Shown here one piece after another: positions 7,159-50,619 of a stretch of 55,116 nt of DNA. A program made the translations under genes and the position numbers. Under the pieces are notes generated by a model. The model was given only the letters and a program-made list of their open reading frames with translations, was not told the DNA's origin and ran no database searches. The stretch comes from a virus: the IMG/VR virus record IMGVR_UViG_3300012930_000005, positions 1-55,116 of that record, one strand, 5' to 3'. Numbering within the stretch: the first letter of the stretch is position 1; the number at the start of each line of letters is the position of its first letter.

Positions 7159-7174
7159 TGTTGGGGGAATGGAT

Positions 7175-8173
7175 ATGGCGTTCATTGATATGTGGCGAGA
7201 GATAGCGATAGAACTTGGTCCGATGCCTGGTGCGCTCGCTCGAACGAAGGTCAATGAAGCTCTAGGATTGGTGTACGACGAGAACAGATGGAGCTTCCAG
7301 CTTGGTACGAGCGGATGGCTTACACCTGGTCTACTGGGACCGCAGGGAACGACAGGGACGAGCCCTGGTCTTATCACGATAGCTCCATACTCAAACCAGG
7401 TTGTCGGTGATCCTACAGCGGCTACAGCGTGGCAGAATCTAATCGGTCGGCCGTTCATCTCGGAGATGCAGTTCCGCATCCCAGAGTTCGAGCTATACGA
7501 CATCATCGCGTTCGACGGTGTAAACACGCTGACCCTCGATAGACCGTGGATGGAGCCGAACCAGTTGAATCAGGGGTACATGATCTACCAGGCGTACTTC
7601 CCTGTGCCGGTGCAGGACTTCAGATCGTTTATTGCGATTAGAGATTTCACGAATACGCGTAACCTCGACTTCTCAAAGACGACTCGCGCTGACATGGCTG
7701 TGATCGACCCGCAGCGTATCGTATTCCAGCAGCCGACGAGAGCAGTGCCATTCGATCAGGATCATCGTCCAAACAGTGCGACGCCCGGATGGATGCGTTA
7801 TGAGCTGTGGCCGCATCCTCTATCCCAGTTGCCGTACTCGCTGGCGTTCATGAGGCGTGGTCCACTGCTGGTGAATCCATCGGACATGGTCCCGTATCCG
7901 TTCACGGAGGAGATGATCAAGTGGAGAGGGAAGAGCGTCTCGTATCTCTGGAAGGAGTCACAGAAGGGCGTAGACATGCAACGAGGTGCAGGAGCGAACT
8001 GGACGTTCCTGTCTCAAGCGGCCGACAAGCAATACACAAAGCTGTTACGACAAGCGCAGAGCAACGATAGAGACTTGTACAACCTGTACTGGACGAAGCT
8101 GAGACGTAACGGATGGGGAGAGGTTGGTCCATTCTTCTCTTCGGATGGTCACAATCTAACCATCGGGGGATAG
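7175..8173 (+). CDS. Probable head-tail connector or adaptor protein
   Basis: At 332 residues from the chosen start. An upstream in-frame ATG at 7169 lies inside the ribosome binding site GGGGGA, so the ATG at 7175 is better. The N-terminus (MAFIDMWREIAIELG) and aromatic-rich body lack signal or membrane segments. It lies between capsid and tail-fibre genes and has the same general character as the protein at 17610, which also begins with a short helical region (both discuss many Trp/Tyr and Pro). A connector role is inferred from position only. Confidence 0.5.
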   Translation: MAFIDMWREIAIELGPMPGALARTKVNEALGLVYDENRWSFQLGTSGWLTPGLLGPQGTTGTSPGLITIAPYSNQVVGDPTAATAWQNLIGRPFISEMQFRIPEFELYDIIAFDGVNTLTLDRPWMEPNQLNQGYMIYQAYFPVPVQDFRSFIAIRDFTNTRNLDFSKTTRADMAVIDPQRIVFQQPTRAVPFDQDHRPNSATPGWMRYELWPHPLSQLPYSLAFMRRGPLLVNPSDMVPYPFTEEMIKWRGKSVSYLWKESQKGVDMQRGAGANWTFLSQAADKQYTKLLRQAQSNDRDLYNLYWTKLRRNGWGEVGPFFSSDGHNLTIGG

Positions 8174-8175
8174 GC

Positions 8176-11100
8176 ATGAAATTCCGCATCATCTTTGCGT
8201 TACTGATGCTTTCGGTGTTTGGAGGAGTCGCACACTCCCAGGCACAGATTCGATACAACGGGTTGTGCTCGGCAAATGGTCTTCAGGTCACAACGCAAGG
8301 ATTGAAGTCTACCGGATACTTTGAATCTGCTTATCCCAGGTGCTTGGTGCGTGTCTTCGTTCACGGATCGAGCACGTTGGCGCCTATCACGACAAACGGG
8401 ACGGTACCCCTACCCAATCCATTCACGGCGGAAGCAGATGCCTCGTTCGCCTTCTATGCCTCGAATACCACTCACTACGACATCACGATGAGCGGTGCTG
8501 GCATGGTGACGACCACAATCTCTGATGTAGCGCTTCCGGGTGCTGGTGGTGGAGGTATCCTTCCACAGTCGGCCCCATTGCAGCCAGGTAACGCCCTGGG
8601 GAGCTACGACGCCACAACTGGACTGTTTACCTACACACCGGCCTCAGGAGGCGGAGGAGCCCCTGCAGGAAGCGTTCTGGACATACAAATCAAGAGCACA
8701 GCGACGACATTCGGGAATGTAGCTGGACTGGCGGCAATTCCGAACGGAGGTCTGGGAGTCGGTTTGAACAATCCTACGAACCCAGACCTTACCTTCGGGT
8801 ACTTCAGCGCCAAGAATCCGAACGGAAACTGCAACGTCAAGCTGTGGGACAGTAGCAGCACGTCCACGGGTAACGGGTTCAACAACGCGCTTGGAGCCGG
8901 TTGCAACAACCTGCAGCAGTTTCCAGACGACGTAAAGTCGGATGATCTACCGGCAGGACAGACTTACCCTGGACCGCAGGTATGGCAGCATCACGAAGGA
9001 CCAGGCTACAACTGGAACCAGTACTACAACTCGATTCTGGCGAAGAGAGAGCACTACAACCTGAGTACACGCATCTACCCTGATTCGGCCGGAACAGAGC
9101 AGATCACAGAAGACTTCGCACCAGGTTGGAACTTCGGCAACGTCTCGAACGTGACTGGAAACCTCTGGTCTACGACGAAGATGATGAACAGCGTCACCCA
9201 GTTCCTAAATGCCGGTATCAAACAGATGTGGGCAGGAGTGAACTTCTGTAACGGTGGAGGCGATTGCTCGACAAGCTACACCTACACTCACTGCAACGGA
9301 TGGACACCTGACGCCTCGGGTGAAGGTTGCGGAGGAAGCACGCAGCAAGTCTTCGAAGAGAACATTGATTACATCCGTGCGATCACCTCTTCTTCGACTC
9401 TGCCGGATGGATCTACGCAGATCATCTCGAACATCTTGGATGGAAACCCAGGAGCCCAGAGAATCGCTCTGAGCTTGGCAGCGATCAACGTTGTTGCTAT
9501 CGCGTCAGGAGAAACACCGTACAACGGGTTCACGGAGTACTCTCTGCAGTCAGGAACGTTGACCGGATCTGCTGGCATCTTGGCCGGTGTAGTGACTGCA
9601 ACGAACTCGGACTATGCGAACACGCAGACCTTCTACCGAAGCGATACGGCGACGATGGCGGTCGTCACAACAGCTATCCCAGTAGGAACTCAGTACGGAT
9701 GCGCGTTCGGATCATTCTTCAGCGAGAACGTAACCTTCACCGGGATAAGCAATCCTTCTGGAGGGAACCAGACCTTGACGTTTCGTCACCGATACCCATA
9801 CAACGGTCAGACGATGATGGCTGCTGGCAACTGCCAGTACTTGTCAATGTCTCTGGATGAGGGTGCGTACGGTCTACGCGAGTCGTTCCCGATGATATCA
9901 ATCGATGCGACTCACTTCGTATCGCAGCGCTATGGATATGGTTCTCACACACCGCTGACAAAGATCTTCCAGGTTGGCTCTGCAAAGCTTCCAGATCCAG
10001 CATTCCCCACGGTGGATGTACAGAGACTAGCGAACGGAGACACGTATGTAACGGTGAATCCGCAGGTAGCAGGTTCCTACGTACCAGGGACACAGCTCAC
10101 CACGTTCTGTTCGTCTGATTCATCCTTCAACGGACAGTTCACGGCCGCATTTGTATCACCCGTGGCCGACGCCGGTGGAAACTACTACATCCAATATCCG
10201 ACGAGCGCAACGAGCGTAGCGTCCTGCCCTGCAGCGAACGCAACCATCACTCTCTTCGGTCTGAACGGAGGTCACATCTACAACGGAGCTGAAGTCATCC
10301 ACGTAGACCTGAGCACCGGCCAGGACGTGTTGACGCTCGAACAGAACAGCACAGCATGGGTACCGGGTCAGCAGATCGACGTAGCGCATGGGATGAACCT
10401 CCAGATGCACAACGCAACGGATCAGACTACGCAGCTCTCGGTAGACTCTTCTGGCGGTAACAACGTGTTCACGCACTTCGTGAATGGAACCCAGGCACAG
10501 CTTGAACAGTGGGGCGGCATGAACGCTCTCGATCTAGCTCTGATGCGTGGTAACGGTGGACAGCGGCCGGTACCGAACTACATGGTGTTCCACATGCCCA
10601 TCAACAACCTCTTCAACGTGGTTGATTCACCGGACCACGGGTCTACGAAGTTCATCTTCGCTTGCTATGGATTCACCAGCGATCTAGCAACGAACTGCGG
10701 TAGGACACCAGACTTCAACCTCTTCAACTTCGAAGGTAAGGCGGCGAACGGAAACCTGGTTGGTACGACGATGACCTTCTCCCCGTCAACGTCCAGGTTC
10801 GCAATCAGAGCGCAGCTCATGGACTTCTCTTCTACGAACTTCCAGGTGGACGAAAACGTCGGCGTAAAGATCGTTCTCCCACCGACTGCCGTCAACACTG
10901 TACCTCTCACGTTGACGAGTCAGCAGACGAATGCAGGTAATGCCGGTATCAGCATGACGTTGAGTGCAGAGCACGACTTGCTGATGGGATACTTCGGACC
11001 TGGCAATGGAGCAGGGCTCGCAGGGACATACGGATTCTTCGATCAGAACAACCAGTGGTTCTCATGGAACTCGAATCAACTTAGTGATTTCTGTTTGGGT

Positions 11101-11334
11101 ACACCGTTGTCAGGTGGTAACGTAGCAGCTTGCACGGGCGCTCCGTGGATCTTCAACAAGTCTGCGAACACTACAACGCTCACTGGAACGTTGGCCGCAG
11201 GAACAGCAGTTACAGCCCCGAATCTGATCCAAGTTACGAGTGCAGTACAGCCGAGCGGTTGCTCGCTAACTGCAGGAAAGTTCGTTCAGGCAACCATCAA
11301 CGGAGTGTCTGTAAACATACCGGTGTGCAACTAA
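8176..11334 (+). CDS. Large secreted tail-spike-like protein with signal peptide
   Basis: At 1052 residues. It begins with a clear Sec signal peptide (MKFRIIFALLMLSVFGG, cleavage near HSQA-Q), chosen because GGGGGATAGGC precedes this ATG. Residues about 25-115 form a domain shared with the next gene (both have C-LV-V-VH, then PNPFTA and FYAS..HYD). The long body is Asn/Gly/Thr-rich and beta-type, with many Cys, as in spikes and extracellular enzymes. The last residues are IPVCN, so a Cys lies two from the end, as in its neighbours. No hydrolase motif was recognised. A Sec signal on a virion protein is unusual; a periplasmic, exported or host-modifying role is an alternative. Confidence 0.6.
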   Translation: MKFRIIFALLMLSVFGGVAHSQAQIRYNGLCSANGLQVTTQGLKSTGYFESAYPRCLVRVFVHGSSTLAPITTNGTVPLPNPFTAEADASFAFYASNTTHYDITMSGAGMVTTTISDVALPGAGGGGILPQSAPLQPGNALGSYDATTGLFTYTPASGGGGAPAGSVLDIQIKSTATTFGNVAGLAAIPNGGLGVGLNNPTNPDLTFGYFSAKNPNGNCNVKLWDSSSTSTGNGFNNALGAGCNNLQQFPDDVKSDDLPAGQTYPGPQVWQHHEGPGYNWNQYYNSILAKREHYNLSTRIYPDSAGTEQITEDFAPGWNFGNVSNVTGNLWSTTKMMNSVTQFLNAGIKQMWAGVNFCNGGGDCSTSYTYTHCNGWTPDASGEGCGGSTQQVFEENIDYIRAITSSSTLPDGSTQIISNILDGNPGAQRIALSLAAINVVAIASGETPYNGFTEYSLQSGTLTGSAGILAGVVTATNSDYANTQTFYRSDTATMAVVTTAIPVGTQYGCAFGSFFSENVTFTGISNPSGGNQTLTFRHRYPYNGQTMMAAGNCQYLSMSLDEGAYGLRESFPMISIDATHFVSQRYGYGSHTPLTKIFQVGSAKLPDPAFPTVDVQRLANGDTYVTVNPQVAGSYVPGTQLTTFCSSDSSFNGQFTAAFVSPVADAGGNYYIQYPTSATSVASCPAANATITLFGLNGGHIYNGAEVIHVDLSTGQDVLTLEQNSTAWVPGQQIDVAHGMNLQMHNATDQTTQLSVDSSGGNNVFTHFVNGTQAQLEQWGGMNALDLALMRGNGGQRPVPNYMVFHMPINNLFNVVDSPDHGSTKFIFACYGFTSDLATNCGRTPDFNLFNFEGKAANGNLVGTTMTFSPSTSRFAIRAQLMDFSSTNFQVDENVGVKIVLPPTAVNTVPLTLTSQQTNAGNAGISMTLSAEHDLLMGYFGPGNGAGLAGTYGFFDQNNQWFSWNSNQLSDFCLGTPLSGGNVAACTGAPWIFNKSANTTTLTGTLAAGTAVTAPNLIQVTSAVQPSGCSLTAGKFVQATINGVSVNIPVCN

Positions 11335-12779
11335 TGAAGAAGCTCCTACAATTCGCGTTCCTGATCACCTTCTCTTCCCTGTGTTATGCCCAGAACTTGA
11401 ACTACAACGGAAGCTGCAGCCAGGGCTCAGTCAAAGCTCTTACCAGTGGTTCTCCATCATCGAACTACCTCCAAAGCGCTGTACCGGGATGCTTGGTTAG
11501 CGTATACGTCCATAGTTCACAGGTACTAGCGGCGATCTTTATCGAAGATGGAACGCCGAAACCGAATCCCTTTACCGCACAGAGCAACGCTGCGTTCAAC
11601 TTCTACGCATCGTCTAATTCGCACTACGACGTAACGATGCGAGCGTCTGGGATGACGACCACGACACTCACAGATGTCTCGCTAGGATCTGGAGGAGCTG
11701 GAGGTTCAGTTACGAGCGTGAGCGGTGGCGTAGGTGGTGGCATGACGGTGAACGTAGCTAATCCCACCACAACGCCTAACATCACAGTTGCCGCAGATGG
11801 TAGTCACTACATCCCGAACACCGGCGACGTGTCGAATTGGAATGGCAAGGTGAATCGTACTGGCGATACGATGACGGGACCGCTGAACATAGCAGCCTTC
11901 CCAGTCAATTCGACGGAAGTAACGAACAAGAACTATGTGGATACGCTGAACGCACAGGCTCAAGCTGCAGCGGCCGCAGCTCAGGCAACAGCGAATGCAG
12001 CTCAACCACAGTCACAAAAGAACCAGGTGAATGGATATGCAGGACTGGATGCAACAGCTCGCGTACCACGCGCCTTCCTTCCCAACGCTATCGCATACAC
12101 CGATACAGCGAACGCATTCAGTCAAAGCCAGTCGATAACAGGAAACCTCTCTGCATCGGGAGATGTGAAAGGTGGAACAGTTTCAGGTGGAGCGCTTGGG
12201 AACGTTAGGATGATGAACACTCCTATCGGGACTGCTATAAGCTGTTTGACGCTGAACGGATCGTGCTCTACCGCAGGTGTTGGTGCAGTAGGTTTGATCT
12301 ACAACAACACGGTTCCGAATGATCTTGTACTCGCCTATGGAGTGTCAGGACATCTATCGATTCAAAATAACGGAGTCGGAGCGGTCAATCAATTTATCTT
12401 CGACAGTGTAGGAAACCTGACTATACCTGGCGTTGTTGGTGGAGGATTCATTTCTTCCGGTACGACTACCGGACCTATCGCCATCTCCGCTTTCAACTGT
12501 GGACCGGGAAACCAGAACTGCAGGAATTACACCGGACAGTTCACAACCCAATTCAACGGTACCGGCGCTGCAGGGCAGGTAGGTACGATCACGTTCGCTC
12601 CAGCAGCACTCAGTACACAGATGTGTCTGGTGAACGGAGTCACGAGCACTCCGAATATCGCAGCGCTCGATATAGCTGTGTCTGGAACCACGAATACCGT
12701 TTATACGTTCAACCTCGTCAACGGAGCGGCAAACACTGCAGGGGCAATCCTTACCGTAAAGTACATCTGTTCGTTCTAG
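11334..12779 (+). CDS. Secreted tail-fibre-like protein, paralogue of the preceding N-terminus
   Basis: At 481 residues, coupled by TAATG to the previous gene. It has a Sec signal peptide (MKKLLQFAFLITFSSLCYA-Q). Residues 20-115 repeat the N-terminal domain of the preceding protein, followed by a Gly linker and, near residue 170-240, a fibre-like block (MTGPLNIAAFPVNSTEVTNK, then an Ala/Gln coiled coil) typical of tail-fibre trimerising regions. The C-terminal 60 residues form a small Cys-bounded beta domain (MCLV to KYICSF) also present downstream. A fibre role is likely. Confidence 0.65.
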   Translation: MKKLLQFAFLITFSSLCYAQNLNYNGSCSQGSVKALTSGSPSSNYLQSAVPGCLVSVYVHSSQVLAAIFIEDGTPKPNPFTAQSNAAFNFYASSNSHYDVTMRASGMTTTTLTDVSLGSGGAGGSVTSVSGGVGGGMTVNVANPTTTPNITVAADGSHYIPNTGDVSNWNGKVNRTGDTMTGPLNIAAFPVNSTEVTNKNYVDTLNAQAQAAAAAAQATANAAQPQSQKNQVNGYAGLDATARVPRAFLPNAIAYTDTANAFSQSQSITGNLSASGDVKGGTVSGGALGNVRMMNTPIGTAISCLTLNGSCSTAGVGAVGLIYNNTVPNDLVLAYGVSGHLSIQNNGVGAVNQFIFDSVGNLTIPGVVGGGFISSGTTTGPIAISAFNCGPGNQNCRNYTGQFTTQFNGTGAAGQVGTITFAPAALSTQMCLVNGVTSTPNIAALDIAVSGTTNTVYTFNLVNGAANTAGAILTVKYICSF

Positions 12780-12805
12780 AGCATCTGAAGTTATAGGGAA
12801 TCGAC

Positions 12806-14440
12806 ATGAATATAAAAAATACAATACGATGCACACTTCTTCTCTTATTCGGCGGTCTGGAAAGTTACGCGCAGAGCAATCCTAAGCCAGCAGGAGCATA
12901 CATCAACGCTGGTGCAGGATGGACACCATTACTCGGTACAGCAACAGCCGGAGCGATCACGTATAACCCTGTACCTACAGCTTTGTTCATCTACAACACC
13001 AGCTTGGCTAAATGGGTTCCTTGGGATGGAACGAGCAGTGGTGGAGGAGGCACAGGGACAGTAACGAGTGTCTCTGCCACCGGTAATGCATTGGTGGCGG
13101 TGAACGTCACCGACCCAACGACGACACCATTGATTGTATTGACGCTTCCGAACCAAAACGCCAATAGCGTTTTCGGGAACTTTACAGGATCGAGCGCGGT
13201 TCCTACTTTTTCGTCTACCCCGCAATTCAACGGCGCAAATATCACCGGTTTGAACTTCACTCAAATCGGCGGCTCGGCCTCTATTGCACAGCTCCCGGCC
13301 ACGGTAATCCAGACAGTGGGAACTGCTACTGCCAATGTGATTCTCAAGCGAACCACTAGCAATACTGCGACCGACTCATCCTTGACAGACAACGGGACAA
13401 CCATAACGACGACTGAGGCTATAAATGCAGGAGCGGTAGCTACCACTGGCAACATCACGGCGCAAGGAACGGTGAACTCTACAGCCAACACAAGTCCGGC
13501 AAGTATCACAAACTCCGGTGTGGCCCTATCGGCATCTCCTACGGTTGCCGATGTTGTCTATTACGATGCAAGTCGAACTACGAATAACCACGTTGCAGAC
13601 GCTCTCTGGTTGAGTGGTTCATATTCGCTTCGATTCAAAAGCGATGACCAAGCCAGTGCAACTACCTTCTTCGCGGCTGCAGGCGGTCAGGCATCTGGCA
13701 TAACAGGTATCACCTCAAGTAGCGGCACAGGAACGTGGACGCACACTGGACCGTTTACGGCTACAGGGAACATCACAGCACCATCCTTCATCGGCAACGC
13801 TTCGTCAGCTACGAACCTACCTGGTGGGCTCCTGGGCTCCATGCCCTATCAGTCGGCCGCGTCAACTACTGCAATGCTCGCTGGAAGCACCTCTTCAGCG
13901 ATTGCAGTGCTCACTCAGCAAGGCAACGGAACGATCAGTGCAATTCCAGCATGGAACGCTGCTACCGGAACAGGTTTGGTAGTATTCGCAACTTCACCAA
14001 CCATCGCAACACCTACGCTTACAGGAACCACGAACAGTGGACCGATAACAGCGAACGGAGCCCTGACGACAAACCTGAGCTTGGTATCCACTCGGGCGAC
14101 CGGCACAGCTCCTCTGACCGTAACCTCCGTCACTCCAGTAGCGAATATGGTAGTGGCGAAACATCCAACCGCTCTGTATTGCGGAACGGCAGCGGCTTGT
14201 ACCGCAACCGCCGCACTCAACAGTCAGATGGTCTATGGATCAGCCACACTCACAACTGGAGCGGTAACAGTCACGGGAATATCACCAGCGTTCGCAGATA
14301 CAGCGTATATCTGCACGGTTACTTCGAAGACAACATCTAGCGCAGCAATCTTCAATGTACAAAACGTATCGACATCCTCTTTCACCATCAACGGGAGCGG
14401 TTCCGCTGGTGACGTAGTAGGTTACATTTGCGTTCGTTGA
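12806..14440 (+). CDS. Secreted fibre-like protein with C-terminal Cys-bounded domain
   Basis: At 544 residues. Signal peptide MNIKNTIRCTLLLLFGG with probable cleavage at YA-Q. Then a short domain (AYINAGAGWTPLLGTA), a Gly linker, and long Thr/Ser/Ala-rich beta repeats. The last 45 residues (YICTVTS to VGYICVR) match the ends of the proteins at 11334 and 14462, with one Cys at each end. It ends in TGA; read-through would run in frame into the next gene, but the latter has its own signal peptide. Probably a fibre subunit. Confidence 0.6.
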   Translation: MNIKNTIRCTLLLLFGGLESYAQSNPKPAGAYINAGAGWTPLLGTATAGAITYNPVPTALFIYNTSLAKWVPWDGTSSGGGGTGTVTSVSATGNALVAVNVTDPTTTPLIVLTLPNQNANSVFGNFTGSSAVPTFSSTPQFNGANITGLNFTQIGGSASIAQLPATVIQTVGTATANVILKRTTSNTATDSSLTDNGTTITTTEAINAGAVATTGNITAQGTVNSTANTSPASITNSGVALSASPTVADVVYYDASRTTNNHVADALWLSGSYSLRFKSDDQASATTFFAAAGGQASGITGITSSSGTGTWTHTGPFTATGNITAPSFIGNASSATNLPGGLLGSMPYQSAASTTAMLAGSTSSAIAVLTQQGNGTISAIPAWNAATGTGLVVFATSPTIATPTLTGTTNSGPITANGALTTNLSLVSTRATGTAPLTVTSVTPVANMVVAKHPTALYCGTAAACTATAALNSQMVYGSATLTTGAVTVTGISPAFADTAYICTVTSKTTSSAAIFNVQNVSTSSFTINGSGSAGDVVGYICVR

Positions 14441-14461
14441 CAAAGTACGACGGGGCACAAC

Positions 14462-14803
14462 ATGAAAAACCGAATCTTACTGAGTATTTGCATCATCATT
14501 ATCTACGCCTTGGGTCGAATAGCTTTCCGTCCACTGGAGAAGGTCTTAGCTGACTCTCCGAACGCGGATCTAGTAGGCTCTCTCACGGTAGCCTCTGGAG
14601 CGACAACAGCAGCAACACCATATACGTTCGCTCATGCTGGAACACACATATGCGTGATATCAACACAGACGGCGACAGCGAGCGTTCTTTCTGCATCTGG
14701 ACCGCTCGTACCGCAAGTAACATCAACGACTCTCAATGTTCAATTTGCTAACGCCGTGGCATCAGCTACGGTCGTGGGGTATATCTGTCATGGAACGTTC
14801 TAG
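14462..14803 (+). CDS. Short secreted protein with the same Cys-bounded domain
   Basis: At 113 residues: an N-terminal hydrophobic signal or anchor (LLSICIIIIYALG), a spacer, then essentially only the terminal domain seen in the two preceding genes (THICVIS to VGYICHGTF, the Cys residues about 50 apart). It looks like a minimal, stand-alone version of that domain. The ribosome binding site is weak (CGGGGCACAAC). The next gene begins within its last codons. Confidence 0.65.
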   Translation: MKNRILLSICIIIIYALGRIAFRPLEKVLADSPNADLVGSLTVASGATTAATPYTFAHAGTHICVISTQTATASVLSASGPLVPQVTSTTLNVQFANAVASATVVGYICHGTF

Positions 14804-15725
14804 ACTTATCAAAATCTCGGTTGGTTTCATCTTCTTCGCGTTCGCTCTCGCGCTCACGATACCCCTCCATTCACAGCAAGGTATTCTCAGTACTCGAACC
14901 ATCGGAAGCATCGGCGTAAATGCCGGTCAGCCTGTCTACAGCGTTGCTTGCACGACGAGCGTCTACCTCTGCGTTATACCGACAGATGGAACCCAGGCCT
15001 CTGCTGGTCTAGCGCTCGATACAGGTAATCCTGGCGAGCTCACAACCATCGTGACCTACGGACGTGCTCCGTGTGTCTATGACAACACCCCGATTCAAGG
15101 AAACATCGCTATCGTCGGTAATGGGGTTTGCCACGACAGTGGATTTACGAACCTCGCCAACATCTCGAACACACAGCTTGTATCAGGGAAGATCCTTCAA
15201 GTTCTGAGCCCCACCACGGCGCTCACGAACTTCCTCTGCCCTGGTTGTACAGGGAACCTGATCGAAGTCTCAACGATCAAACAGGCAGATCTGACAACGT
15301 ATATTCAGGCACACCAGCTTACGAGTGCCGGTCCTACTGGGCCAACGGGTGCGACAGGTGCTACTGGAGCAACTGGAACTACCGGCGCAACGGGTCCAGC
15401 GGGAGTCCTTTACTACAACTCGGCCGGTGCAGTAGCGAATATGAAGTGCTTCAATTCGGGAGCGTTCACTACCACCACATCAGGAACCTGGACGATGAGC
15501 TTCTCAGCCGCCAGCATAACTACGATTCGGAAGGTGAATGCGATGCCTATTTCACCGGCGACAACCAACGCCACGGATCAATATGTCGCCATCGTGAATC
15601 CAATCTCAGGATCTACTATTTCAGGCAAGGTTGTGTCTGGAACAGGAATCCTCTTACTCGGAGCTTCTTCGCTTATTCCGATAACGGTCGCTGCTACCAT
15701 TTATGTGGAAGTTTGCGGGACGTAA
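14790..15725 (+). CDS. Secreted collagen-like fibre protein
   Basis: At 311 residues, overlapping the previous gene by 14 bases. N-terminal signal or anchor (VGFIFFAFALALTIPL, then HSQQ). Around residues 180-205 lies a Gly-X-Y run (GPTGPTGATGATGATGTTG), the collagen-like trimerising element of many phage fibres. The end is a beta domain (TIYVEVCGT) with a Cys three from the C-terminus. The start at 14790 is chosen because it begins the hydrophobic signal; the ribosome binding site is poor and translation is probably coupled. Confidence 0.65.
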   Translation: MERSRLIKISVGFIFFAFALALTIPLHSQQGILSTRTIGSIGVNAGQPVYSVACTTSVYLCVIPTDGTQASAGLALDTGNPGELTTIVTYGRAPCVYDNTPIQGNIAIVGNGVCHDSGFTNLANISNTQLVSGKILQVLSPTTALTNFLCPGCTGNLIEVSTIKQADLTTYIQAHQLTSAGPTGPTGATGATGATGTTGATGPAGVLYYNSAGAVANMKCFNSGAFTTTTSGTWTMSFSAASITTIRKVNAMPISPATTNATDQYVAIVNPISGSTISGKVVSGTGILLLGASSLIPITVAATIYVEVCGT

Positions 15726-15803: not shown

Positions 15804-16091
15804 TTGGCAAATTCAGAGAATCCTTCTATCGGCGAAATTCTCACGCGGCTTGGTGATCTAGAGGTTGAACAGGCCACTTTCGCAGCTCATCAGGAATGGG
15901 CGACCGGGAGAATAAAGAAGCATGACAAGGATCTCTACGAGGGTAATGGTTTGCCAGCTATAACTCAAAGGCTGTCAACCCTGGAGATGATCGCAGGGAT
16001 GGCTAAAGCTATGGTGGGACTCGCAGCGCTGAATACGATTGCGCTGTTCGTGTTCCTTTTCAAATTCTGGGTGAGTAAAGGGGGGAAGTAA
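15804..16091 (+). CDS. Holin-like small membrane protein
   Basis: At 95 residues. A soluble helical N-terminal part (residues 1-60; LTRLGDLEVEQATFAAHQEW, with heptad-like spacing) is followed by one C-terminal membrane helix (MVGLAALNTIALFVFLFKFW) and a short basic end. This layout resembles XhlA-type holin partners. The TTG start at 15804 is uncertain: an ATT six bases earlier sits nearer to a GGAATGGGG site. Location next to the endolysin supports a lysis role. Confidence 0.55.
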   Translation: MANSENPSIGEILTRLGDLEVEQATFAAHQEWATGRIKKHDKDLYEGNGLPAITQRLSTLEMIAGMAKAMVGLAALNTIALFVFLFKFWVSKGGK

Positions 16092-16685: not shown

Positions 16686-16715
16686 GCGAAGATGATAGTT
16701 GAAGCGGGGAAGAAA

Positions 16716-17222
16716 ATGGATATTACCAGCGAAACTCGTTTGTCGCAAGTTGACCCTGTTCTGGAGAAGAAGGTTCACATTGCGGTCGCACAGATCGCTC
16801 TCGAACACGGTATTGAGGTTCATGTTGCACAAGCTCTCCGTTCTGTAGCGGACCAGGATGCGCTCTACGCCAAGGGAAGGACGGTACTCAAAGATGCAAG
16901 CGGGAAGGCAGTCCATATCGTCACGTACGCGAGAGGCGGATACAGCTCGCACAACTTCGGTTTGGCAGTCGATCTTGTCCCAGGGGTACTTGGCAAGATC
17001 GTTTGGACTCCCAACTGGGACTCCGAAGATCCAGCCTATGGGTATATGGCAAGCGCTTGCAAAGCCGCAGGGTTGAAGTGGGGCGGTGACTGGATAGGAA
17101 AAAAGAAAGACTTGCCTCACTTCTACATCGGACCGGACACCCCAACTGATCTAATGCGTCTAGCCCTGAACGTCCACGGTTTGCAGTATGTGTGGGACCA
17201 GGTAGCGGCAGGGACTTACTAA
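16716..17222 (+). CDS. Endolysin, M15-family (VanY-like) peptidase
   Basis: At 168 residues from the chosen start. Hydrolyses a peptide bond in peptidoglycan at the end of infection. Seen: ALRSVADQDALYAKGR near residue 40, the metal motif SxHxxGxAxD (SSHNFGLAVD, residues 77-86) and LPHF with the third zinc ligand His135. Together His79, Asp86 and His135 are the expected zinc ligands. No signal peptide, so it should need a holin, consistent with the holin-like gene upstream. The ATG at 16716 follows GGGGAAG; an upstream ATG at 16692 has no such site. Confidence 0.88.
   Translation: MDITSETRLSQVDPVLEKKVHIAVAQIALEHGIEVHVAQALRSVADQDALYAKGRTVLKDASGKAVHIVTYARGGYSSHNFGLAVDLVPGVLGKIVWTPNWDSEDPAYGYMASACKAAGLKWGGDWIGKKKDLPHFYIGPDTPTDLMRLALNVHGLQYVWDQVAAGTY
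16720..16748 (-). promoter_or_regulatory. Candidate leftward promoter for the membrane-protein cassette
   Basis: On the minus strand, TTGCGA, a 17-base spacer and TAATAT, each hexamer matching consensus at four positions. It lies inside the 5' end of the endolysin gene and would start transcription about 25-30 bases before the membrane-protein start. Confidence 0.35.
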
Positions 17223-17609: not shown

Positions 17610-18956
17610 ATGCCCTACACGTACCTGACCTTCGCACAGGCTCGGCAGCAACTCGCATCTAAGCTAGCAGATGAGGGAAACGTTAGATGGACCGACACCG
17701 AAAATAGGTTCTACATCTACGAAGCGTTGAGAATGTGGAACTGCCTTACTGCTACGTGGAAGACGGACTGGTCTTTCAACTTCAATACCGGTACTACCGT
17801 TACATGGATCAATTCCGGCACCGGACTTCCAGGCAATCCTTCTCCTCGTCTGCAGCAAGTCACCTACGGCCAGCTCTATCAGATGATGCAGTACCATCTC
17901 CAGCAGCCAGCTTCCGGTGAAGTGTGGACAGGAACGACTCAGTTCCAGATGGTAGATCTGATCGGAGCGGTGAATCGCCATCGTGCAGAGATTCAACAGC
18001 AGACAGCTTGCAACACGATCATCTTCAATCTTCCAGCAGTGTCAGATAGCAGAGCTGCGGTATTGCCGGACACGATACTTGAGGTCATCCGAGCACGATG
18101 GGTACCTGCGTTCCCGACCGATGGACCGCCTGTAACGTTGGTGCGCGATGACCGTCTTGGTGAGATGTACTACGAAGCCGGTTACGTACAAGCTCCGGCG
18201 GGTATTCCGAGTGACTACGATGTGTCGAGCGTTGCTCCGCTGCAATTCTTCGTAGACATCGCTCCGAACGTACCTGGTCGATACGAGATTGTTGCTATCC
18301 AGGCGAGCCCGGACTCAACATCACCTCCGACCACTACCGGAATCTTCATACCGGATGACTTCATCTGGGTTCTGAAGAATGGAGCGATGGCAGACATCCT
18401 CGGTCGTGAGTCAGAAGCTACCGACCGGCCGCGTGCGGAGTACTTCCAGAAGCGCTACCAGGACGGCCTCAAGCTCCTGCAGAACACCCCGTGGATACTG
18501 ACGGCGTACATCAACAACGTTCCTGTCGATACGCCCTCTCTGGTGGAGCAAGACGGCTACGCTGCTGAGTGGGATTCGAAGCCAGCAACGCTGCAGGAGA
18601 TTATCACCACGGGTATCGACTTCTTCGCTGTTGTGCCGGACATCAACAATCCGACAAGCGTAACGCTTTCCATGCTTGGCAATGCACCGTTACCAGTGTT
18701 GGACTCAGATCCTATCCAGGTAAGCCGTGATGTGCTGGAAGCGATCATCGATTACGCACAGTTTCTCGCCACGATAAAGATCGGTGGTGCGGAGTTCCAG
18801 TCAGCACTACCGCTAGAGGCTAACTTCATCAGGCTTGCTTCTATGACGAACGGCCGTCTGGTAAAGACAGGCGCATTCATCGATGTTCTGTATAAGCAAG
18901 GCGCACGGCAGGAAGACTATCAAGAGCGGTTCTCTACGAAGACACAGGAAGAATAA
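17610..18956 (+). CDS. Probable connector/tail adaptor protein
   Basis: At 448 residues. The N-terminus (YTYLTFAQARQQLASKL) and following segment have the look of gp4-type or tail-tubular adaptor proteins that begin with a helical head-binding part. Trp/Tyr-rich middle, no membrane or signal segment. It is coupled by TAATG to the large nozzle-like gene, which supports a connector or tail hub role. Assignment is from context and general character only. Confidence 0.5.
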   Translation: MPYTYLTFAQARQQLASKLADEGNVRWTDTENRFYIYEALRMWNCLTATWKTDWSFNFNTGTTVTWINSGTGLPGNPSPRLQQVTYGQLYQMMQYHLQQPASGEVWTGTTQFQMVDLIGAVNRHRAEIQQQTACNTIIFNLPAVSDSRAAVLPDTILEVIRARWVPAFPTDGPPVTLVRDDRLGEMYYEAGYVQAPAGIPSDYDVSSVAPLQFFVDIAPNVPGRYEIVAIQASPDSTSPPTTTGIFIPDDFIWVLKNGAMADILGRESEATDRPRAEYFQKRYQDGLKLLQNTPWILTAYINNVPVDTPSLVEQDGYAAEWDSKPATLQEIITTGIDFFAVVPDINNPTSVTLSMLGNAPLPVLDSDPIQVSRDVLEAIIDYAQFLATIKIGGAEFQSALPLEANFIRLASMTNGRLVKTGAFIDVLYKQGARQEDYQERFSTKTQEE

Positions 18957-30158: not shown

Positions 30159-31117
30159 GCGAAATAATGAAGTACGGACAGACGATTGCTCTAACAGAGT
30201 GGCGTGATCCAGAAGCACACCTGGCAGAAGCACAGCAAGCGGCCGCAGCTCTGGGACGTGTGATTGCGATGAAGCCCAAGCCTGTCATCTTCAATGGTGA
30301 GCAATATCTGGAACTGGAAGACTGGCAAACAGTCGGTAAGTTCTACGGGTTCACGGCGAAGGTTGAGTCTACCAACCACGTTGAGTACGGTGGCGTGACT
30401 GGATGGGAAGCAACGGCTGTTGTGATCGACAAGCACGGTACCGAAGTAGGACGTGCGGAGTCGATGTGCATGACAGACGAAAAGAACTGGGGTGCGGTTC
30501 CTGTGTACGAATGGCAGGACGTGCTCGACAAGAACGGGAAGAAGATATGGGACGAATCCAAAAAGCGTTACAAGTCCAACAAGGTTCAGACCGGAACAGA
30601 GCCCAAACCAACCTTTCAGCTTCGCTCTATGGCTCAGACCCGTGCGTGTGCCAAGGCTTTCCGCCAAGTGCTCTCATGGGTAGTTGTGTTGGGTGGGTTC
30701 AAGCCAAACGTAGCAGAGGAGCTTATCGATTCGCAGATGGAAGAGAAGAAAGAGCAGCCAACACAGACAGGACCGGCACCACAGATCGGTCGCAAGAGCG
30801 AGAAGTCTTCAAACGAAGTGGTACCAGAAGGCGGACAGCAACAACAGAAAGGGCATTCGGAAGGTGATCCAGATCCGAAGCTACTCGCGTGGAAAGAGAA
30901 CAACGAACACGACGAGAAGATCCACATCAGCTATCCACAGAGCAAGCTGTTGTTCGTGGTGATGAAGAAGACCAACGTGAACGAAGAGGCGATGAAGGCG
31001 ATTCTTAAAGCCAGCTACAACGTTGAGCACTTCAACAACATCCTGAAGAAGGACTTCAACGGGATACTCGACGGTCTAGATCCAGAGATGGAGTTCCACA
31101 AGCCGCTAGAGAAGTAA
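30155..31117 (+). CDS. Candidate single-strand annealing or recombination protein
   Basis: At 320 residues, starting by ATGA overlap. A beta-type core (residues 50-140; GWEATAVVIDKHGTEVG, MCMTDEKNW) is followed by FQLRSMAQTRACAKAF and VVVLGGF, a motif combination I associate with a group of phage recombination proteins. The C-terminus is a Gln/Glu-rich linker and a small helical domain. The exonuclease gene downstream supports an annealing protein-exonuclease pair, like Red or RecET. Family membership is a judgement, not proved. Confidence 0.5.
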   Translation: MSEIMKYGQTIALTEWRDPEAHLAEAQQAAAALGRVIAMKPKPVIFNGEQYLELEDWQTVGKFYGFTAKVESTNHVEYGGVTGWEATAVVIDKHGTEVGRAESMCMTDEKNWGAVPVYEWQDVLDKNGKKIWDESKKRYKSNKVQTGTEPKPTFQLRSMAQTRACAKAFRQVLSWVVVLGGFKPNVAEELIDSQMEEKKEQPTQTGPAPQIGRKSEKSSNEVVPEGGQQQQKGHSEGDPDPKLLAWKENNEHDEKIHISYPQSKLLFVVMKKTNVNEEAMKAILKASYNVEHFNNILKKDFNGILDGLDPEMEFHKPLEK

Positions 31118-40083: not shown

Positions 40084-40449
40084 ATGAAGAAAGTTACAGC
40101 AGCATTCGCCAGCCTTATGCTGTGCGTCCTGTTCATCACAGGATGCTCAGGATTCGAGCGGACGACACTCCAGACGCTCTCTGCGTCTAAGGTAACTATC
40201 GATGGAGCCCATGCAGACTATGAGTCTGGAAAGCTTCCTCACACACAGGCCGTCAACGACGTGATCACCAAAGCTATTGCGATTCAGAAGACCGCAGTAG
40301 ATGCGATGGTGGTCTATGAGCAGATGAAGATAACAGGACAGACTTCAGCTCTGCCGGAGCAAGAAACGGTCGTTCTGGTAGCTCTCGTCAACCTTCCAAC
40401 CATCCTCACCGACGTAAAAGGGCTTTACTCAACCGGAGGTGCTAAGTGA
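40084..40449 (+). CDS. Small lipoprotein (spanin-like candidate)
   Basis: At 121 residues. N-terminal signal (MKKVTAAFASLMLCVLF) with lipobox ITGC, so Cys21 should be lipidated. The mature part is helical and soluble. Lipoproteins near holins are often outer-membrane spanins, but this one is long and lacks a typical Pro-rich linker. The next gene overlaps its stop by GTGA. Confidence 0.65.
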   Translation: MKKVTAAFASLMLCVLFITGCSGFERTTLQTLSASKVTIDGAHADYESGKLPHTQAVNDVITKAIAIQKTAVDAMVVYEQMKITGQTSALPEQETVVLVALVNLPTILTDVKGLYSTGGAK

Positions 40450-41967: not shown

Positions 41968-42696
41968 TTACAAAGCTGGTGACAATTGAACGTTTTCAAC
42001 AACTTGCACATCGTGTTTTTGTAATTGACTTGGAATCTGTTGCCCTGCGGCGAATCGGATAAGAATCTTACCGACAGTCGCAGCCTTCCATTCACCCCCA
42101 TTTCTCGCATATTGACCAACGTAATTGAGGTTCTTTGCGATATCGAGATAGGTCAAACCTTCGTCTCTCATGCGCCGCATCCAGTCCAAGGTTGGACGCT
42201 CATCCTCGTTCGCGCCGTATGGCTTCCTTCCTTCGCAGCGACCGTGGGATATCTTGTGGCGCTGCCGAGCCCCACGAAGCCGTAGAACGATTACGCTCTT
42301 CTCGTATTCAGCGATGCATCCGAAGATCTGGCGTACCAGAACGCGGGAAGGATCAGAGGAGCAAAGATCAGGTTCAGCGGTAGAGAGAAGCTCATAGCCG
42401 CGCTTCTGCATATCGGCTATCAGAGTCTCCTGAACCATCAGGTCACGTGCGAGTCGGTCCAGCTTCTCGATCAGGACGACCTTTACATCGTTGTCCTCTA
42501 GATCCACGAAGAGGCTTTGTAGAGCCGGACGGTCGTCCAGCTCCTTTGTGCCGGAGACGCCCTCTTCGCGGTAAGTCTTGACTATCTCGATACCGCGTTG
42601 AGCAGCGTACGCTTCACACGCCAAGTACTGACGTCGGAAGCCGTCACCCTCAACCTGTCCGGCACCTGAGACGCGGAGGTATACGTAAGCCTTCAT
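41968..42696 (-). CDS. Serine site-specific recombinase
   Basis: At 242 residues. Resolvase-type catalytic domain with YLRVSGAGQ (Ser10 is the nucleophile), LDRLARDL near 80 and the E-helix. A Recombinase-family region follows (GRKPYG, then LDIAKNLNYVG and a W..ATV.KIL ending), much shorter than in large serine integrases (over 450 residues). It could be a resolvase, invertase or compact integrase; no attachment site was identified. It starts by ATGA overlap with the RNase H stop. Confidence 0.8.
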   Translation of the reverse strand: MKAYVYLRVSGAGQVEGDGFRRQYLACEAYAAQRGIEIVKTYREEGVSGTKELDDRPALQSLFVDLEDNDVKVVLIEKLDRLARDLMVQETLIADMQKRGYELLSTAEPDLCSSDPSRVLVRQIFGCIAEYEKSVIVLRLRGARQRHKISHGRCEGRKPYGANEDERPTLDWMRRMRDEGLTYLDIAKNLNYVGQYARNGGEWKAATVGKILIRFAAGQQIPSQLQKHDVQVVENVQLSPAL

Positions 42697-43292
42697 TCTT
42701 CACCTCGTGCTTTCTTGAGTGCTGCTGAGGCTCGTGCGCGTATTTCTTCAGGATTCCACAGAGATTGACCTTGGCCGACTTCTTCGAGGAAACTCAGGCA
42801 CTCAGTCAAGGATTCGTACATCTCAGGAGCCGCTGCAGCCATAAGGCGATCTTTGGGTTCAGGCTGTAGCTTGAACACGACATTGCGTGCGTGCAGTACT
42901 CCCTTCGACAAAGCATCGCAAGCGCTGTTCTGGGCTCTTGGTATCCACGACATCTTCACTCGCGGCTTGTTGATCATGTAGAGGTACAGCGCCTCTTGAT
43001 AGTGCGGGAAGTATAGTCCACCTTTGGCTTTCCACTTACGCTGAACCTGCATGATGACAAGCTTTGAGTCGCCGTAGATGTGGATGTTGCCGACGTACTT
43101 TACGGCCTCTGTAAGAGCAGCGATGAATCCTCGATACTCCGCAACGTTGTTGGACATCTTATCGCCTACGCCGACGTAACCACCTTCTGCGTAGACTTCC
43201 ACTCCGTCAACCTTGACGAGAGCACCCCATGATGCGTGACCACCTGGGTTACGTGGTTCACACGCTCCATCGAACCAAGCTTCAATACTCAT
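42693..43292 (-). CDS. rnhA: RNase H-like protein
   Basis: At 199 residues. RNase HI catalytic residues Asp8 (FDGACEP), Glu52 (SNNVAEY), Asp75 (YGDSKLV) and Asp126 (CDALSKG) are all visible, so activity on RNA in RNA-DNA hybrids is expected. About 50 residues longer than the usual 150, with a helical extension (ESLTECLSFLEEV). It starts by ATGA overlap. In the phage it could remove primers. Confidence 0.88.
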   Translation of the reverse strand: MSIEAWFDGACEPRNPGGHASWGALVKVDGVEVYAEGGYVGVGDKMSNNVAEYRGFIAALTEAVKYVGNIHIYGDSKLVIMQVQRKWKAKGGLYFPHYQEALYLYMINKPRVKMSWIPRAQNSACDALSKGVLHARNVVFKLQPEPKDRLMAAAAPEMYESLTECLSFLEEVGQGQSLWNPEEIRARASAALKKARGEE

Positions 43293-49911: not shown

Positions 49912-50619
49912 ATGACACCACTGAAGAGACAGATGATGATCGTGTTCGTATCGTTCCTGGCGTGCATCCTGGCGATAGGCGTGTGTTGCTCTGTGTCGCG
50001 CTCACAGACGAAGAGTGTGGTTACGCCTCCGGTTGACCCTGGAATATCTCATCACGAAGACAATGAGCTAAAGGTAGAAAACGAGCTAAATGTCAAAGGT
50101 AAATTGACGTGGGCAACGGCCGATGGGTTAGGAAGCAGTTTGAAGATAGATGCAGAGGTTCCTAAAGCAACGGCTGTGGTTATTGAGGGAGAAGGAGTAG
50201 CGAACACTGTCACGGTTCCCAAAGGAAGCTACATCGTGGTGATCACACCACCACCTCAACCATTGGTGCTAGAGACTCAAGATCCTAAGAACACTCCGAT
50301 ATATACGCCACGGGTTGTTCCTGGGTTATTCAATTCAGAAATAGAAAACAGATCGATGGTTGGTGGTGGAGTTCCGCCGGTACCGACGTTCCTAGTTACT
50401 GCGGACAAAACAAAGACTGAGATTACCGTAAGGGCTTTTTGTCCTACAGGGTATATCGTCGAACTCCCTTATCTCGGATGGACTGAGAACGCTCCTGAGA
50501 GGTTGCAAGCCATATTGAACTCTAAATGCGAAACGTCCAGATTCGTTCGGCCAGGTGACATGACTCCCACACTAACATTCACATTGAATCTGCGGAATTG
50601 GTCGAAGGAAAAGAAGTGA
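49912..50619 (+). CDS. Membrane-anchored periplasmic protein
   Basis: At 235 residues. N-terminal hydrophobic segment (MIVFVSFLACILAIGVCCSV) followed by a hydrophilic body with a Pro-rich loop (VVITPPPQPLV) and beta segments (TEITVRAFCPTGYIVEL). Signal anchor or lipoprotein (CC near residue 25); no perfect lipobox. Host envelope role by inference. Confidence 0.6.
   Translation: MTPLKRQMMIVFVSFLACILAIGVCCSVSRSQTKSVVTPPVDPGISHHEDNELKVENELNVKGKLTWATADGLGSSLKIDAEVPKATAVVIEGEGVANTVTVPKGSYIVVITPPPQPLVLETQDPKNTPIYTPRVVPGLFNSEIENRSMVGGGVPPVPTFLVTADKTKTEITVRAFCPTGYIVELPYLGWTENAPERLQAILNSKCETSRFVRPGDMTPTLTFTLNLRNWSKEKK

Follow-up and report, generated by a model that had tools for sequence, protein, structure and literature searches.

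The virus record IMGVR_UViG_3300012930_000005 of IMG/VR, analysed here over its full 55,116 nucleotides (the window), carries at positions 8176 to 15725 a module of five consecutive genes, and we consider it likely that these encode the receptor-binding fibres or spikes of a short-tailed phage that are made as Sec preproteins, oxidised outside the cytoplasm and joined to the particles at lysis. Features of the sequences give good support for export and disulfides; incorporation into the virion and its timing are what we infer. A soil phage group that includes cultured phages of Acidobacteriota, among them Tunturi_1 and Tunturi_2, podoviruses of the acidobacterium Tunturiibacter (PMC11924767), appears to export all its tail fibres on cleavable signals, with disulfide folding.

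Signal peptides and cysteine parity

The five genes of the module were the following.

8176..11334, + strand: gene 1, a predicted exported fibre or spike of 1052 aa; signal about residues 1-23, cleaved between AHSQA and Gln; virion-anchoring-type N-domain at residues ~25-120, containing Cys31 and Cys56; 18 mature Cys
11334..12779, + strand: gene 2, a predicted exported fibre of 481 aa; signal 1-19, cleaved between SSLCYA and Gln; N-domain as in gene 1, with Cys28 and Cys53, and C-terminal beta-domain with Cys431 and Cys479; 8 mature Cys
12806..14440, + strand: gene 3, a predicted exported fibre of 544 aa; signal 1-22, cleaved between LESYA and Gln; C-terminal beta-domain with Cys503 and Cys542; 4 mature Cys
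14462..14803, + strand: gene 4, a predicted exported protein of 113 aa; atypical long signal and little beyond the C-terminal beta-domain (Cys64 and Cys109) after it; 2 mature Cys
14790..15725, + strand: gene 5, a predicted exported protein of 311 aa; short collagen-like stretch at residues 181-205; 8 mature Cys

The N-termini were scored by a home-made rule, which six textbook signals (OmpA, MalE, PhoA, LamB, Bla and DsbA) also pass. By this score all five genes begin, as had been predicted, with a signal-like n-h-c segment and a signal peptidase I site, that of gene 4 being long and atypical. Across 41 phage loci the same score was passed by 50 open reading frames (ORFs) in the fibre modules and by only 6 of the 439 ORFs of at least 150 aa outside them. 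The small-x-small site was followed by Gln in 40 of the 50 exported phage proteins versus 12 of 40 signal-like proteins from a metagenome-assembled genome (MAG) of Acidobacteriaceae, and it is possible that this Gln forms pyroglutamate after cleavage.

The original prediction also placed a Cys within five residues of the stop codon in all five genes and a second Cys upstream in three of them. Both observations were reproduced: the last Cys is at residue 1051 of 1052, 479 of 481, 542 of 544, 109 of 113 and 309 of 311, and genes 2, 3 and 4 have another Cys 39-48 residues before it. As a general signature the terminal Cys was dropped, only 10 of 44 relatives having one among their last five residues (expectation 8.7% per protein). 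The general signature is an even total of mature Cys, which the original prediction did not contain and which in the window amounts to 18, 8, 4, 2 and 8.

The mature Cys count was even in 42 of the 44 complete exported module proteins (range 2-32) versus 117 of 212 control ORFs. In an extended set clustered at 40% identity it was even in 53 of 56 proteins and 48 of 51 clusters (p = 2e-11), the three odd exceptions being the proteins at 8179 of locus L039 and at 17044 of locus L052, and Tunturi_1 gp16. Two held-out phages (L090 and L091), retrieved later with an unrelated spike query, gave even counts in 7 of 7 proteins, and Tunturi_2 gp17 has 34 mature Cys versus 32 in its near-identical Tunturi_1 homologue, that is, a difference of one pair. 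For 13 proteins with an odd Cys count in the signal, removal of the signal always left an even total, and the precursor total was never even; in the extended set, the mature count was even in 15 of 16 such clusters. An even mature count despite an odd-Cys signal indicates that the signal is cleaved.

The exported proteins have a Cys density 2-4x that of other phage proteins, and the Tunturi_1 module contains 2.06% Cys versus 0.50% in 13 cytoplasmic virion and packaging proteins. The signal-like proteins of the Acidobacteriaceae MAG, a set that includes membrane proteins, had no even-Cys excess (8 of 17) and a low Cys content (0.56%). The counts point to paired Cys in the mature parts, from which disulfides are deduced, and the combination of cleavable signals with paired mature Cys argues for folding outside the cytoplasm with disulfides.

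Tailspike-type domains, gene order and relatives

The N-domain of genes 1 and 2 contains a Cys pair (GxC ... PxC). All 17 homologues with a signal had this pair and all 6 without a signal lacked it (Fisher 1e-5); locus L041, where both N-domain Cys are present but the N-terminus fails the signal rule, was not counted. Only two transitions are required on the domain tree, which makes the evidence weaker than the p-value suggests, and an independent-contrast test of Cys pair against signal gave no significance, two transitions being too few. A fibre of locus L004 (9932-12727) falls within the signal-bearing clade but has no signal and retains only one of the two N-domain Cys, likely through reversion. 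Taking into account the parity, the parity switch at the cleavage site and the Cys pair tracking the signal, the proposal of Sec export with disulfide formation outside the cytoplasm is strongly supported.

The N-domain profile matched the N-terminus of the Pan3 tailspike (E 0.0015). The model of the domain had a mean pLDDT of 76, with a core mostly at 80-91; its top PDB matches in Foldseek were the tail complexes 9vyg (Pan3) and 7eeq (Pam1), with tailspikes matched in BFVD, and re-alignment gave Z of 8.7 with Pan3, 8.1 with Sf6 and 7.5 with the P22 head-binding domain. Signal-less homologues of the N-domain are annotated as tailspikes in Serratia, E. coli, Pantoea and Idiomarinaceae phages and, in the records checked, begin ~16-22 residues before the matched stretch. 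By both profile and model, genes 1 and 2 carry a virion-anchoring N-domain of the head-binding type. The module resembles the tailspikes of Pan3 (9vyg), Pam1 (7eeq), Sf6 and P22 (1lkt) in the fold of the N-domain, a gene beside the tail adaptor and, more tentatively, a tailspike-type C-domain, with N-domain sequence similarity detectable for Pan3; known podophage tailspikes, in contrast, lack a signal and are folded in the cytoplasm, whereas the module proteins with this N-domain have a cleavable signal in front of it and two additional Cys within it. A scan of genome contigs with the N-domain gave no match, and among 396 Acidobacteriota genomes its profile matched solely a phage contig in one MAG; these searches thus gave no evidence of a prophage.

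Structure prediction of the C-terminal domains had been suggested as a check. The domain common to genes 2, 3 and 4 and to locus L061 was modelled as a beta-sandwich with both Cys, in strands 3 and 6; its likeness to tailspikes (best matches the C-domains of the Sf6 and LKA1 tailspikes, Z 7.5-8.0) is tentative, coming from a 4-sequence alignment and a model with pLDDT 73.

With its 123-bp terminal repeat the window represents a complete phage genome, catalogued as a virus record. Its order is portal-like gene (914), major head protein (4750), tail adaptor (7169), the five module genes, holin-like gene, endolysin and second adaptor. The genes that flank the module were the following.

7169..8173, + strand: tail adaptor-like, no signal, directly 5' of the fibre module; the query for finding relatives
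15804..16091, + strand: small protein with a C-terminal hydrophobic segment, putatively holin-like from its position and shape
16692..17222, + strand: M15 peptidase endolysin, 3' of the module
17610..18956, + strand: second adaptor, the downstream limit of the module; weak SU10_adaptor match, homologue in Tunturi_1/2

Genes 1, 3, 4 and 5 have a Shine-Dalgarno-like G-rich run 5' of the start from which the signal is read, and the start codon of gene 2 overlaps the stop codon of gene 1. Pfam and PHROGs searches of the five genes returned nothing but the short collagen-like stretch in gene 5. Residues 209-339 of gene 3 (13430-13822) have 39.7% identity over 131 aa to BcepF1.012, a small hypothetical protein of Burkholderia phage BcepF1. 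Outside the fibre module we observed a predicted 121-aa lipoprotein with an ITGC lipobox-like motif (40084-40449), a 235-aa protein with a strongly signal-like N-terminus (49912-50619) and, on the - strand, two overlapping genes resembling by eye a serine recombinase and an RNase H (41968-42696 and 42693-43292).

Full-length gene 2 found no relatives among viral contigs, and the only annotated phages that it matched were Tunturi_1 and Tunturi_2, which share the gene order and the N-domain homology (38%) with the window. In Tunturi_1 the six consecutive genes gp12-gp17, flanked by the tail protein gp11 on one side and by lysis genes on the other, each have a signal-like N-terminus, that of gp15 being weak. 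An alignment of the tail adaptor was used to gather relatives (49 viral loci), and about 25 distinct IMG/VR phages have large signal-bearing, Cys-rich genes 3' of it. At or close to that location, the genes of three relatives (L037, L038 and L065) lack a signal and are poor in Cys, and over the adaptor tree the signal label changes at least 5 times. The siphophage Tunturi_4, with an unrelated tail, has three signal-bearing Cys-rich genes (gp111, gp113 and gp114). Like the window, the modules of Tunturi_1/2 (gp12-gp17) and Tunturi_4 consist of consecutive signal-bearing, Cys-rich fibre or spike genes, mostly with even Cys; they differ in being annotated as hypothetical, tail spike or structural, and signal peptides are unmentioned in the text of PMC11924767. 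In Tunturi_4 gp111 (L030:30076-33171), the annotated start at 30433 misses an in-frame upstream start that would give the signal LNRISKAIGLCALALSVGSSYG, cleaved before Gln, and the N-terminus of gp113 is closely similar to that of gp111 with the upstream start. As for hosts, the trait is present in a phage contig of the Acidobacteriaceae MAG and absent from one in a Methylophilaceae bin, both host links being weak because of binning.

Proposed virion role and alternative explanations

A tail adaptor lies on each side of the module, the endolysin gene is a neighbour, and the position is shared by sister phages whether or not their proteins carry signals. Being encoded next to tail adaptor genes is what is expected of podophage tailspikes and tail fibres; their usual signal-less cytoplasmic synthesis, which is not strictly defining, is not what the module proteins display. 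The strongest competing explanation, to which we give a minor though real chance, is that the products are exported, disulfide-bonded proteins outside the virion, such as secreted depolymerases, decoys or receptor blockers, which clear polysaccharide or stop superinfection and are built from tailspike-derived domains. Secreted enzymes can arise from the tailspike fold, as in WceF of Pantoea, with a Tat signal (PMC7949094), the tail-fibre region of phage lambda encodes Lom, a signal-bearing outer membrane protein (PMC12309495), and some exported relatives contain beta-helix and sugar-binding-type domains. However, the virion-anchoring N-domain and the adaptor-adjacent position are kept in signal-bearing and signal-less sister phages, and no large signal-less fibre or spike was recognised in the window, Tunturi_1 or Tunturi_4, where structural proteins of unknown function remain. 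A Lom-type protein would be an outer membrane beta-barrel; genes 1-2 (N-domain) and, more tentatively, genes 2-4 (C-domain) match tailspike domains instead.

Display on the infected cell, raised in the original prediction, would have the exported fibres act at the surface by aggregation, receptor blocking or capture of other cells. Exported adhesins could in principle remain there; no tool result favoured it, and by eye genes 1-5 have neither a lipobox nor a membrane anchor, C-terminal ones included, all of them adjoin lysis genes and the N-domain of genes 1-2 is of the virion-anchoring type, which makes this reading very improbable. Slightly less credible still is that the hydrophobic N-termini are uncleaved membrane or virion anchors of fibres made in the cytoplasm: a hydrophobic N-terminal segment alone is no proof of cleavage, and that of gene 4 is long and atypical, but the parity switch contradicts such anchors, and the small-x-small sites before Gln and the Cys-rich mature parts also stand against them.

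If the fibres are exported virion proteins, head, neck and tail stub would assemble signal-less in the cytoplasm while the folded fibres wait in the periplasm. Until the cell bursts, exported fibres would be kept apart from the other virion parts, and since the adaptor is signal-less and cytoplasmic, we infer joining at lysis. Once holin and endolysin had merged the compartments, the products of genes 1 and 2 would dock on the tail adaptor through their tailspike-type N-domain, and the products of genes 3-5 may attach to the gene 1/2 proteins or to neighbouring sites, so that the final step of virion assembly would take place at or after lysis. A likely benefit would be that disulfides stabilise the adhesins in acid soil and that the adhesins do not bind receptor or polysaccharide precursors within the cytoplasm.

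Several points weigh against this explanation. The signal calls come from a home-made rule, the timing of assembly is deduced, and the literature searched contained no virion proteomics or localisation data for these phages. The virion-anchoring N-domain was recognised in genes 1 and 2 and in none of genes 3-5, and its fold also matches unrelated transthyretin/CnaB-like proteins at similar Z. Finally, Tunturi_3 and Tunturi_5, from the same host genus, have signal-less fibres, which indicates that the trait is not required by the host; strict host linkage of the trait was rejected for the same observation.

Precedents and meaning for tailed phages

Tailed phages, to our knowledge, are taught to assemble wholly in the cytoplasm. 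The filamentous-phage adhesin pIII is a Sec-exported virion adhesin with disulfides; it is membrane-anchored, and filamentous virions assemble in the membrane, whereas the tailed capsids of the present phages would be assembled in the cytoplasm, and their exported proteins showed no anchor. Among phage late proteins, Lys44 and the SAR endolysins are exported by Sec before lysis (PMC6116005); they share this timing of export with the proposed fibres and differ in being lysis enzymes, not receptor-binding proteins. The literature searched, which excluded subscription journals and preprints, contained no precedent for an exported receptor-binding protein of a tailed phage.

Somewhat less firmly than for the window itself, we favour a widespread class of tailed phages, with at least two tail morphologies, in which the entire receptor-binding apparatus is Sec-exported and disulfide-bonded and the virions are completed outside the cytoplasm, at or after lysis. 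Tunturi_1, Tunturi_2 and Tunturi_4 are cultured and carry the arrangement, so it is directly testable. If it is true, such fibres would need periplasmic production when expressed, the presence of disulfide-rich adhesins on tailed phages would be accounted for, and the most abundant viruses would have a second assembly route, in which adhesins are exported, oxidised and joined at lysis.
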